Assembly: GCA_902774155.1 (NCBI GenBank)
Contig: CACYHF010000015.1
Span: forward strand, 1-34,074
Direction: 5' to 3'
Source of the DNA: an uncultured Bacteroidia bacterium
GTDB lineage: Bacteria > Bacteroidota > Bacteroidia > Bacteroidales > UBA932
Length of the DNA: 34,074 nucleotides
Positions 17,758 through 20,684 of this stretch are shown piece after piece; position 1 is the first letter of the stretch; each line of letters begins with the position of its first letter. The position numbers were made by a program, and so were the translations under genes. Below the pieces are notes generated by a model that searched no databases, was not told the origin of the DNA, and saw only the letters and a program-made list of their open reading frames with translations.

Positions 17758-18684
17758 ATGAAAAAATTCATCGTTTTATTAGCGCTTTGTCTGGGTTTTG
17801 CCGCCCAGGCCCAGGAAACGTACCGTTTTGCCGAAAGGGATACCTGCTCCCTTTATCTGGATATCTATCGGCCTGCTGCAGGTAGCCAGACACAACTGGA
17901 CAGCCTGGACAAACCCGCCATTATGTACGTCTTCGGCGGCGGTTTCATTATGGGCGAACGCTCGCACCCCTGGCATCTTCCGTGGTTCAGGACCCTGAAC
18001 GAAAACGGCTATACAGTGGTAACGGTAGATTACCGGCTGGGTATGAAAGGGGTAAAGGTGGGAAAAGGCATGAGCGGCGCACTCCAAGCCTCCGACGCTT
18101 TTGAAAACGCCCAGCAGATGGGCGTGGAAGACGTTATATCGGCCGTGACTTTCCTGCTGGAGCAGAAGGATTCGCTGGGAATCGATCCTTACAATATGGT
18201 TATTTCCGGTTCATCGGCCGGAGCCATCATTTCGCTGGCCACCGAATATGCCCTTGTGAGCGGACGCGCCAAAGGCCTGCCGGAAGACTTTAATTTCAAG
18301 GGCGTCATGTCCTTTGCCGGAGGCATCATCAGCAACAGTGGAGCGCCCCATTTCCCGAAGGCTCCCTGCCCCATCCTGCTGCTGCACGGAACGGCCGACC
18401 AGGCTGTGCAGTATAAGAGCATGGCCTTGTTCGGCAAAGGAATCTGGGGAAGTTCCTGGCTGGCAAACGACTGGAAACGAGCGGGATATAACAATTACTG
18501 TATCTATCGCTTTAAGGATTCCACCCACGACGTAGCCATGTATATGGAAGTGCTCTGGGACCTGGAAAAAACCTTCCTGGAGCAGAATGTCATACGGGGA
18601 CACGCCCGCAGCGTGGACGCACTGGTGGATGACGCTTCGCTCCCCCACTGGATGCAGATTTCCCTGGGCGATATCTACAAATAA
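17758..18684 (+). CDS. Secreted alpha/beta-hydrolase (esterase-like)
   Basis: The 308-residue protein has a signal peptide MKKFIVLLALCLGFAAQAQ. The hydrolase core has an oxyanion segment YVFGGGFIMGERS, the nucleophile elbow SGSSAGAII (Ser in GxSxG), a likely acid in HGTADQAVQY and a likely His in DSTHDVAMY. The pattern resembles BD-FAE and carboxylesterase-type enzymes, although the usual HGGG is FGGG. The substrate is unknown; cell-surface or periplasmic ester cleavage, for example of acetylated or feruloylated glycans, is one possibility. ATG 17758 is chosen over an upstream TTG because it gives a clean signal peptide. No TAnnTTTG motif was found in front of it. Its last 10 bases overlap the convergent Lrp gene. 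Confidence 0.82.
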   Translation: MKKFIVLLALCLGFAAQAQETYRFAERDTCSLYLDIYRPAAGSQTQLDSLDKPAIMYVFGGGFIMGERSHPWHLPWFRTLNENGYTVVTVDYRLGMKGVKVGKGMSGALQASDAFENAQQMGVEDVISAVTFLLEQKDSLGIDPYNMVISGSSAGAIISLATEYALVSGRAKGLPEDFNFKGVMSFAGGIISNSGAPHFPKAPCPILLLHGTADQAVQYKSMALFGKGIWGSSWLANDWKRAGYNNYCIYRFKDSTHDVAMYMEVLWDLEKTFLEQNVIRGHARSVDALVDDASLPHWMQISLGDIYK

Positions 18685-19142
18685 AGGGCGTGGGTGTTCT
18701 TGATCTCGTCCATCACAAAAGATGAGAGGATGGAACCGATGGAGTCAATGTTGCCCAGCACATTGATGATGAACTCATTATAATACTTCATATCCGAAGC
18801 CTGGATCTTCAGCAGGTAGTCGTATTCGCCGGATATGTTGTAGCATTCAATCACCTGGGGAATGTCCTTGATTACGGAGATGAAGTTCCGGGCCACGGAA
18901 CGCGTCATCTGTTTCAGTTTCACGCTGCAGAACACCGTGAAACCCCGGCCCAGTTTGCCGGCATCCAGCACCGCCGCATATTTCAGGATAAAACCCTCTC
19001 TTTCCAAACGCTTCATCCGCTCGAAAACCGGCGTGGTGGAAAGGTGCACCTGAGACGCCAGTTCCTTGGTGGTGAGCCGCGCATTTTCCTGCAATGCCCG
19101 CAGAATCTGCAGATCGATGTTGTCCAATATTATTTCACTCAT
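18675..19142 (-). CDS. Lrp/AsnC family transcriptional regulator
   Basis: The 155-residue DNA-binding protein has an N-terminal winged helix (residues 8-55, ILRALQENARLTTKELASQV then STTPVFERMKRLEREGFI). Its C-terminal RAM ligand domain (65-150) contains KDIPQVIECYNISGEYDYLL and SILSSFVMDEIKN. The family senses amino acids and forms dimers to octamers. It is divergent from metY-metX-thrA, so control of methionine or aspartate-family synthesis and of itself is the natural reading. The tandem palindrome at 19224-19249 is a plausible binding site. Its 3' end overlaps the esterase gene by 10 bases. Confidence 0.93.
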   Translation of the reverse strand: MSEIILDNIDLQILRALQENARLTTKELASQVHLSTTPVFERMKRLEREGFILKYAAVLDAGKLGRGFTVFCSVKLKQMTRSVARNFISVIKDIPQVIECYNISGEYDYLLKIQASDMKYYNEFIINVLGNIDSIGSILSSFVMDEIKNTHALYL

Positions 19143-19197
19143 TCTTTTTTTCGTCTAAAAACCAGCCCTAAAAATACATTTATTCTATTATTCGTAA

Positions 19198-19205
19198 CAA
19201 AAATA
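19198..19205 (-). promoter_or_regulatory. Candidate promoter TATTTTTG for the Lrp gene
   Basis: The reverse strand reads TATTTTTG 55 bases before the ATG at 19142. The region is very AT-rich, so the match is weaker evidence than elsewhere. Confidence 0.45.
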
Positions 19206-19223
19206 GCAATTTATTCCGACTTT

Positions 19224-19249
19224 TAGAAATTTCTTGTACGAAATTTCTA
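19224..19249. promoter_or_regulatory. Tandem palindrome, probable Lrp/AsnC operator
   Basis: TAGAAATTTC and GAAATTTCTA are perfect 10-base inverted arms around the 6-base spacer TTGTAC. Each arm contains GAAATTTC, itself a palindrome, so the site is also two direct copies 14 bases apart. It sits seven bases upstream of the met promoter motif and upstream of the lrp promoter, the right place to regulate both. Known E. coli Lrp sites are AT-rich palindromes of similar style. Binding is inferred. Confidence 0.6.
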
Positions 19250-19256
19250 CTTCGAC

Positions 19257-19264
19257 TATCTTTG
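19257..19264 (+). promoter_or_regulatory. Promoter TATCTTTG for metY-metX(-thrA)
   Basis: TATCTTTG ends exactly where the left arm of the 27-bp inverted repeat begins (the final G is shared). Transcription would therefore start inside the left arm. The ATG is at 19404, giving an unusually long leader for this window of about 130 bases. Confidence 0.65.
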
Positions 19265-19385
19265 TTCCGGCAGATATACCTTCCAAAATCTGTGGCCACC
19301 CTTGGCCTCATAAAAGGGAGGGGCCCGTCCGTAAGGATGGGAGGGGTCGCGAAGCGACGATTTTGGAAGGTATATCTGCCGGAAC
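19264..19385 (+). repeat. 27-bp perfect inverted repeat enclosing three hairpins, in the met leader
   Basis: Bases 19264-19290 are the exact reverse complement of 19359-19385. The 68 bases between hold three more helices: GGCCA/TGGCC (19294-19298 with 19303-19307), CCCGTCC/GGATGGG with one G-T pair around GTAA (near 19324-19341), and GTCGC/GCGAC around GAA (19346-19358). As RNA this would fold into a long stem closing a junction with three arms. As DNA it resembles a small palindromic repeat element with terminal inverted repeats; no target-site duplication is obvious. It could be a structured leader controlling met expression, or an inserted repeat (MITE or REP-like) adopted as a leader. Inner text such as GGGAGGGGTCGCGAAGCGAC looks to me like a dispersed intergenic repeat, but this is memory, not a search. 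Confidence 0.75.
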
Positions 19386-19403
19386 TAACCAAAAATATAG
19401 AGT

Positions 19404-20684
19404 ATGGTAAAGATTGACACCCGTTGTGTACATGCTGGATATGCTCCAGGAAAGGGCGAACCGCGGCAGGTTCCTATTATCCAGAGTACTACCTTTAAAT
19501 ATGAGACCTCGGACCAGATGGGCAAATTGTTCGACCTGGAGGAGAGCGGATATTTCTATACCCGTTTGCAGAATCCCACGGTGGATGCCACCGCCGCCCA
19601 GATCAACGACCTGGAAGGCGGTGTGGGCGCCATCCTCACCTCCTCCGGCCAGGCGGCCAACCTGTTCGCCGTCCTGAACATCGCCAGCGCCGGCGACCAC
19701 ATCATCGCAGCCAACAACATCTACGGCGGCACCTTCAACCTGTTGGGCGTCACGCTGCCCAAGCTGGGAATCGGCATCACTTTCCTGAAGGCCGATGCCT
19801 CCGATGAGGAAATCCAATCGGCCATCCAGCCCAACACCAAACTGGTTTTCGGCGAAACCATCTCCAACCCCGGCGTGGAAGTGTTCGACATCGAGCGCTG
19901 GGCCGCCGTGGCGCACCGGAACGGCCTTCCGCTGGTGGTGGACAACACCTTTGCCACCCCTGTCCTGTGCCGTCCCTTTGAATGGGGGGCCGATATCGTG
20001 ACCCACTCCACCACCAAATACATCGACGGACATGGCGTAAGCGTGGGTGGTGCCCTGGTGGACAGCGGGAACTTCCCCTGGGACGCTTATCCGGAGCGTT
20101 TCCCCGGCCTCACTACCCCCGACGCTTCCTACCACGGCCTCACCTACACCAAGCAGTTCGGGAAGGCGGCCTTCATTGTAAAGGCCACCACCCATCTGAT
20201 GCGCGACCTGGGAAGCACCCAGAGCCCGCAAAACGCCTTCTACCTGCACCTGGGCCTGCAAACCCTGCATCTGCGCATCAAGCGACACAGCGAAAGCGCC
20301 CTGCAGGTGGCCCGCTGGCTGGAGAAGTGCCCGGATGTAGCGTGGGTACGCTACCCCGGCCTGGAGAGCGACCCGCACCACGCTCTGGCCCAGAAATACG
20401 TTCCGGACGGATGCAGCGGTGTATTGTGCTTCGGCCTCAAAGGCGGCCGCGCCTTCGACAACCGCTTCCTGGATGCCCTGAAACTCACCACCATTGAAAC
20501 ACACGTGGCAGACTGCCACACCTGCGTGCTGCATCCCGCCTCGCATACGCATCGGCAGCTTTCCGACGAACAGCTCCGCGCAGCAGGCATTGCCCCCGAC
20601 CTCATTCGCTTCAGCGTGGGTCTGGAAGCTCCGGAAGACATTATCGCCGACCTGGAACAAGCCTTAGCCGCCGCCAAAGCATGA
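19404..20684 (+). CDS. metY: O-acetylhomoserine sulfhydrylase
   Basis: This 426-residue PLP enzyme of the Cys/Met metabolism family makes homocysteine from O-acetylhomoserine and sulfide. PLP-binding Lys205 lies in HSTTKYIDGHG. The N-terminus (DTRCVHAGYAPGKGEPRQVP), TSSGQAANLFAVLNIASAGD and the C-terminal CHTCVLHPASHTHRQL with FSVGLEAPEDI match MetY more than MetB or MetC; the pairing with metX supports this. Full length. The ATG at 19404 follows the hairpin leader by 18 bases, and metX overlaps its stop by four bases, so the two are translationally coupled. Confidence 0.93.
   Translation: MVKIDTRCVHAGYAPGKGEPRQVPIIQSTTFKYETSDQMGKLFDLEESGYFYTRLQNPTVDATAAQINDLEGGVGAILTSSGQAANLFAVLNIASAGDHIIAANNIYGGTFNLLGVTLPKLGIGITFLKADASDEEIQSAIQPNTKLVFGETISNPGVEVFDIERWAAVAHRNGLPLVVDNTFATPVLCRPFEWGADIVTHSTTKYIDGHGVSVGGALVDSGNFPWDAYPERFPGLTTPDASYHGLTYTKQFGKAAFIVKATTHLMRDLGSTQSPQNAFYLHLGLQTLHLRIKRHSESALQVARWLEKCPDVAWVRYPGLESDPHHALAQKYVPDGCSGVLCFGLKGGRAFDNRFLDALKLTTIETHVADCHTCVLHPASHTHRQLSDEQLRAAGIAPDLIRFSVGLEAPEDIIADLEQALAAAKA

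Follow-up and report, generated by a model that had tools for sequence, protein, structure and literature searches.

A palindromic, dispersed and probably mobile element in the metY leader of a Cryptobacteroides-like Bacteroidales bacterium

Among the closest described systems, the Rickettsia palindromic elements (RPE) are palindromic, dispersed sequences of ~150 bp that lie in frame within unrelated metabolic genes (PMC10969869). Miniature inverted-repeat elements (MITEs) have terminal inverted repeats of ~25 bp around a short core, and a stable hairpin transcript (PMC10969869), and REPs are sequences of 20-40 bp, most of them tagged at one end with GTAG or CGTC (PMC3733652). Here we describe a palindrome that stands before the O-acetylhomoserine sulfhydrylase gene metY in a 34,074-nt stretch of DNA from an uncultured Bacteroidia bacterium (contig CACYHF010000015.1 of assembly GCA_902774155.1; the window). 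We are confident, short of certainty, that it belongs to a family of dispersed palindromes of Cryptobacteroides-like Bacteroidales that are mobile and apparently non-autonomous.

The palindrome in front of metY

The host gene metY (19404..20684, + strand; TIGR01326, 571 bits over a cut-off of 495) lies outside the element and is followed by a metX-like gene and then by a fused aspartokinase-homoserine dehydrogenase, with a gene for an Lrp/AsnC-type regulator (18675-19142) upstream and divergent to it; metY and the fused gene are named from matches over curated cut-offs, and the metX-like and Lrp/AsnC genes from sub-cut-off matches. The first-pass annotation of this region had proposed a perfect 27-bp inverted repeat enclosing three further hairpins, and both the coordinates and the fold bear it out. 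The repeat occupies 19264-19290 and 19359-19385 with 68 nt between the arms, and slightly longer arms (19261-19290 versus 19359-19388) reach 97% complementarity over 30 nt. The predicted RNA fold of 19261-19388, a long stem with three inner hairpins, has an energy of -77.6 kcal/mol against -39.8 +/- 3.56 kcal/mol for 200 dinucleotide shuffles (z -10.6; 0/200 as good), and DNA folds are likewise extreme on both strands (z -11.5 and -9.3). At 122 bp, this copy is the only one that covariance model R1 finds in the whole window, and its right end lies 18 nt 5' of the metY ATG (19404).

All parts of the element are given on the + strand. Immediately before it stands TATCTTTG (19257..19264), which we take to be the -7 box of the metY promoter given its resemblance to the Bacteroidetes -7 motif and the presence of a like box before metY in relatives; that the last base of this presumed promoter is common to the left arm, as had been annotated, is confirmed by G19264, which is also the first base of the element. 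A generic sigma-70 scan returned nothing on the + strand at this box. The left arm, or outer stem P0 (19264..19290), has a locus-specific sequence with an element-like end, GTTCCGGCAG, and the remaining arms in this genome (G000) differ from it. The core (19285..19365) scores 89.7 bits with model R1, the best match of a 61-genome search by a model for which this copy (L001) is 1 of the 60 training rows. Within the core, hairpin P1 (19292..19309) pairs 19294-19297 with 19304-19307 around a six-base loop (19298-19303), its outer part being weak, and a pseudoknot (19299..19318) would join the loop sequence CCCTT (19299-19303) to AAGGG (19314-19318). There follow a first conserved GGGAGGGG (19316..19323), common to family copies; hairpin P2, CCCGTCC-GTAA-GGATGGG (19324..19341), which appears in the RNA fold and is variable among copies; a second conserved GGGAGGGG (19339..19346), which is GGGAGGGA in other subtypes; and hairpin P3, GTCGC-GAA-GCGAC (19346..19358), also from the RNA fold and absent or different in other subtypes. 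The right arm (19359..19385) is the exact reverse complement of the left and ends in CCGGAAC.

No intrinsic terminator (a GC hairpin followed by a T run) was found in 19000-19500. Rfam 15 gave 0 gathering matches in the window; at E<=10 the leader (19100-19500) gave four weak matches (MIR7533 twice, PhotoRC-I and CRISPR-DR47), all far below threshold and none to a SAM family, and nine element loci at E<=5 gave four weak matches, none of them plausible. Upstream of the promoter box there is another perfect inverted repeat, a small one (TAGAAATTTC / GAAATTTCTA, 19224-19249), which is a possible operator. Compared with the leader, the product of the divergent Lrp/AsnC-type gene would be the likelier candidate for control of the met genes.

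Spread of the family, its core and its arms

Copy counts vary with the search used. A plain DNA search of this genome returned nine matches, one being the reverse match of the query copy itself, whereas model R1, built from 60 copies with the window copy among them, found 13 core matches in this genome and 797 in a set of 61 genus genomes, the element being present in 53 of them. A DNA search found 26 of 61, all within the genus. An order-level draw of 247 genomes, in which fewer candidates were scored and this genome gave 9 matches instead of 13, contained five positives: this genome, one from another genus of the same family, and three from other families. A pattern scan of named genomes recovered at least 119 stretches, and the titles among the 80 listed loci are Bacteroidales, Bacteroidia or Bacteroidaceae, many of them from animal gut and one a Candidatus Cryptobacteroides; viral contigs contained 0 exact pattern matches. 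Seven copies measured in this genome are 110-134 bp long, and the family is palindromic, dispersed and of ~100-150 bp. The first-pass annotation had weighed a regulatory RNA against a small palindromic element that landed after a promoter and was kept, and had reasoned that many dispersed copies of arms and core in related genomes would mean a repeat element; it is this latter option that the genus-wide search favours. A literature search, judged by title and the start of the abstract, found no description of the element. Contigs of one outlying genome (G128, loci L370-L374) have at their start or end a near-identical repeat of ~135-149 nt with the element inside it, and identical copies may break that assembly.

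The core is constant in plan across the family, with P1 and its six-base loop, two GGGAGGG motifs flanking P2 and, often, P3, and with a pseudoknot in which the loop CCCTC pairs with a downstream GAGGG. At both variable positions of the pseudoknot, 4 and 5, a pair is formed in 190/190 unique cores, whereas independence of the two sides would give ~89 and ~145; the pairs are TA (104), GC (65), AT (19) and CG (2) at position 4, and CG (109), TA (79) and TG (2) at position 5. P2 pairs also covary among copies. At the first P2 pair inside CCC/GGG (n = 174) we counted A-U 93, G-U 74, G-C 4, U-A 2, U-U 1 and A-C 0, and the 74 G-U against no A-C point to the core strand as the strand that folds. The fifth P1 pair is paired in 86/190 cores, which is the chance level, with no covariation, and RNAalifold, which cannot draw pseudoknots, picked the pseudoknot and P2 pairs over P1. 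The first-pass annotation had suggested covariance modelling, and had taken paired substitutions together with conservation solely before met genes as the sign of a regulatory RNA; the substitutions are there, and that restriction is not.

Arms of 15 bp or more were present in 163 of the 189 copies scored. Over these 163 copies, 3846 of 4112 arm positions are Watson-Crick pairs and 117 are other combinations, with 105 G-U and 44 A-C, figures that include related copies under symmetric scoring and become 57 and 24 after reduction to 80 arm families; 34 of the 163 copies have perfectly paired arms. Positional consensus over the family is weak, left-arm identity averages 0.30 among the 80 arm families (a set filtered beforehand to below 60% identity), and in genome G007 four copies carry very different arms around one common 60-nt core. 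Fifteen orthologous arm pairs were picked by hand, of which 1 is missing, 10 lie over a 55% limit and 4 under it. The 10 pairs that are at least 55% alike show 37 both-sided Watson-Crick changes and 9 of G-U type, as opposed to 13 mismatches from a change on one side and 2 changes on both sides that do not pair; the 4 pairs under 55%, one of them well paired and the other three representing one locus that is not, show 25 both-sided Watson-Crick and 2 G-U changes as against 29 one-sided mismatches and 5 unpaired. As the arms differ yet remain largely paired, and as the wobble pairs are biased towards the core strand, selection seems to act on the folding of one strand, the wobble asymmetry being unable to tell RNA from single-stranded DNA. 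Selection for pairing, one of two explanations offered earlier for the perfect stem, thus gains support from the covariation of the core and from the orthologous arms; the other, a recent origin, is not needed, as the metY copies of three species are probably orthologous (see below).

Over the inner 18 arm nucleotides, mean identity is 0.55 between orthologous loci, 0.43 within a genome and 0.35 elsewhere. An identical variable hairpin P2, on the other hand, is found in 29/185 same-genome pairs and 20/2432 different-genome pairs (both classes comprising only copies assigned to a genome), and in 4/46 orthologous pairs. In these summary statistics the arms track the locus, and the variable P2 tracks the genome.

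Insertion sites and core orientation

Gene context was read with a home-made codon-usage gene caller for 169 copies, those with under 500 nt of flank being left out. Of these, 55 lie in frame within genes and 7 are unclassed; the others have neighbouring genes that are co-directional (72), convergent (21) or divergent (14). Co-directional copies start at a median of 10 nt past the stop codon, and convergent gaps are slightly over-represented (21/107 classed intergenic copies versus 42/280 gaps). Judged from 17 translations, in-gene copies add ~32-59 residues to the protein. Ten insert-bearing proteins were scanned, nine of which match housekeeping families and one of which has no match; in six the match to the known family extends to both flanks of the insert (pyruvate dehydrogenase E2, YgiQ, RNase R, DnaX twice and MtaB), and the insert falls outside the best-matched stretch in three (RlmI, TruB and PcrA).

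Two genes allow filled and empty sites to be compared. In the CYTH-domain gene of this genome (L004) the element forms ~40 extra residues in frame, and the same site is filled in a second species (L183); among 22 parsed loci (21 of 30 homologues plus L183), 17 are uninterrupted and 3 have other inserts. For ygiQ, 26 of 30 loci were examined, 5 of them unparsable, and the 21 parsed loci comprise 8 with the element, 2 with other inserts and 11 with none. The ygiQ of this genome has no element and is three codons longer than the short form, and these codons are possibly a scar. By eye, filled and empty sites show no direct repeat, and their boundaries are blurred as TTCC/CGGAA occurs in target and arm alike. 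Near the element's codons, other species carry other in-frame inserts, some of them palindromic (L258, L259 and L277 in the CYTH gene; L387 and L388 in ygiQ), and these protein loops appear to receive inserts repeatedly.

Across species, loci matched on both flanks form 21 clusters. In ygiQ, a radical-SAM gene, the copies of G061, G062 and G005 have near-identical arms at the same codons, with the core reversed in G062, and it is from these opposite orientations that the core appears to invert between standing arms. Flipped orientation was seen in 19/46 both-flank-matched copy pairs, in 8/21 clusters. Recombination between the arms is the mechanism we infer; where the arms differ, independent insertion in either orientation is the alternative.

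Upstream regions of 29 metY homologues in the genus were examined (300 nt tested, 220 nt shown), of which 7 were left out and 22, with protein identity of 67% or more, were orientable. The element is present at 3/22 of these loci and missing from 19/22, a "core" flag at L051 being a chance CCCCTCCC in a coding region and excluded from the count. The core lies on the mRNA strand at metY in this genome and is reversed in G061 and G005, whose arms are alike each other and unlike those of this genome; the copies in these three species are probably orthologous. Most of the outcome that the first-pass annotation had named as speaking against a met-specific RNA is therefore at hand, with many copies elsewhere and metY relatives without the element. 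A promoter-like box precedes metY in relatives both with and without the element, and in G028, G064 and G003 a like box (TACCTTTG or TATCTTTG) is followed by a leader of 20-39 nt to the ATG with no such hairpin. The element's outermost TTCCG / CGGAA are similar to a stretch of the native leader in G003 and G064 (CGGAA or TGGAA), a resemblance that locates the element at that point.

Palindromes of other kinds were also seen at these positions. The metY leader of G062 (L050) has a different palindromic repeat, of GTCATTCTGAACGAAGTGAAGAATC type, at the same position, and a palindrome of this type recurs at L325 in G024, where G007 carries the present element. Further sites orthologous to G007 copies (L324 and L327 in G024, L320 in G021) hold other palindromes with cores that are similar, not equal (CCACCCCCGGC...GGGGG; GGGAAGGGGCCC), perhaps sister families.

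We also considered that each insertion might take its arms from the target sequence (A-core-reverse complement of A), as was suggested by the common core with different arms in G007 and by the native-looking outermost TTCCG/CGGAA at the CYTH and metY sites. This was rejected as the main origin of the arms in view of the weak family-wide arm consensus, the common arms among G278 copies (by eye), and the lack of an inner arm in relatives' sites where these aligned, the L210 and L213 sites having aligned poorly.

Mobility, alternative readings and comparison with known systems

Movement of the family is inferred from its distribution and from the empty sites. At the loci examined we found no transposase assignable as mobiliser, no autonomous copy and no target duplication, and in 20 stretches of four outlying genomes (G278, G128, G226 and G308), the genes of which were examined in part, no autonomous partner was recognised. 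In the reading we prefer, a constant, strand-specific core sits, in either orientation, between arms that vary from copy to copy and are largely complementary, and copies lie between genes or in frame within them. The core strand would act folded and single-stranded, as RNA or single-stranded DNA, recognised by an enzyme in trans; the core would flip by recombination between the arms, and arm pairing would be kept by selection and/or by hairpin-templated correction. At metY the element would be a passenger between promoter and start codon that turns the mRNA leader into a strong predicted hairpin, with the final 18 nt upstream of the ATG not included in it, its putative effect on metY expression, if any, being incidental. 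Orthologous copies in several species could have been passed down slowly by vertical inheritance, could stem from insertions that recurred at favoured sites, or could serve the host at some of the sites.

Although speculative and in our estimate rather doubtful, it is conceivable that the mobile unit is the folded, pseudoknotted core itself, invading resident palindromes or being exchanged within them, given that the arms go with the locus, that P2 goes with the genome, and that cores change orientation while the arms stay in place. The core RNA might even be catalytic, or act as a putative guide for its own exchange.

It is unlikely, too, that we are dealing with a REP-like element moved by the RAYT (Y1/HUH) transposases present in these genomes. 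A strand-specific fold would suit a single-strand enzyme, and 45/46 genomes with a Y1_Tnp match carry the element versus 8/15 without one (Fisher p 1e-4, uncorrected for phylogeny or completeness, which counts against leaning on it); those 8 genomes, however, have the element with no Y1 match. Copies lie near a Y1 gene at just 1/20 Y1 loci, and although that one (L349) has three copies within 6 kb, several Y1 genes are flanked instead, by eye, by short repeats of other kinds; RAYT as the mobiliser was set aside on this low adjacency despite the correlation with carriage. The window copy, moreover, lacks a GTAG or CGTC end tag and is much longer than 20-40 bp. The Y1 genes themselves (L337-L354) are RAYT-like, of ~285-335 codons and of more than one kind per genome, and several are bracketed by short repeats of their own, such as ctcgacctggt / accaggtc around L345 and L348.

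Less probable again is a structure that is not mobile and is kept by the host for its function at each site, as bidirectional terminator, mRNA stabiliser or protein linker insert. The 21 both-flank-matched clusters across species, the pairing largely kept in orthologues, and the short distance past stop codons with a slight convergent excess would all be in keeping with it, but close relatives lack the element at orthologous sites, orientation reverses, unrelated proteins contain the inserts and no terminator-like site accompanies the metY copy. Finally, the proposal of the first-pass annotation that this is a regulatory RNA of the met genes, a methionine-sensing leader (riboswitch, attenuator or protein-binding leader) controlling metY-metX, is very improbable and is rejected, in spite of its position exactly between a met-gene promoter and start codon, its strong fold and covarying core, and the probably orthologous copies that persist at metY in G061 and G005, because the same core recurs at unrelated genes in no fixed orientation (13 matches in this genome), is missing from most metY upstream regions and reversed in two of its three carriers there, and has neither a terminator-like site nor an Rfam family over threshold, no SAM family being among the weak matches.

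These findings remove a false riboswitch candidate and put in its place an element family that is abundant and unmatched in Rfam 15, its host genus being represented in many assemblies from animal guts. Natural in-frame inserts in housekeeping proteins can here be compared with the element-free sites of close relatives, and the family is a tractable case of a palindrome whose arms vary freely yet largely pair and whose core inverts. It also poses an annotation risk, in that the element may be translated as a spurious protein segment or called a leader RNA.

Against known systems, the element shares with SAM riboswitches and other met leaders in Rfam its position before methionine genes, but differs in being dispersed at unrelated genes and in matching no Rfam family at threshold. 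It resembles REPs in that its palindromes are mostly intergenic, its fold is strand-specific and Y1 transposases occur in the genus; it departs from them in the 122-bp length of the window copy, in having neither GTAG nor CGTC at either end, and in being flanked by RAYT genes so rarely (1/20). MITE terminal repeats are common to a family, as the transposase reads them. Terminal inverted repeats are likewise found at the window copy, and in arms of at least 15 bp in 163/189 copies, but here the arms vary by copy while the core is constant, and no parent insertion sequence was found. With RPEs, to which we liken it by description and not by sequence, the family has in common a palindromic, dispersed element and in-frame insertion into unrelated protein genes (a property of the family, the metY copy not lying in a gene), and it differs in belonging to another phylum and in its constant core with covarying pseudoknot, hypervariable arms and orientation flips; we know of no RPE with a pseudoknotted constant core between hypervariable, flipping arms. 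We therefore describe it as an RPE- or MITE-like element, distinguished by a covarying, strand-specific core, by arms that change freely while staying mostly paired, and by inversion of the core.
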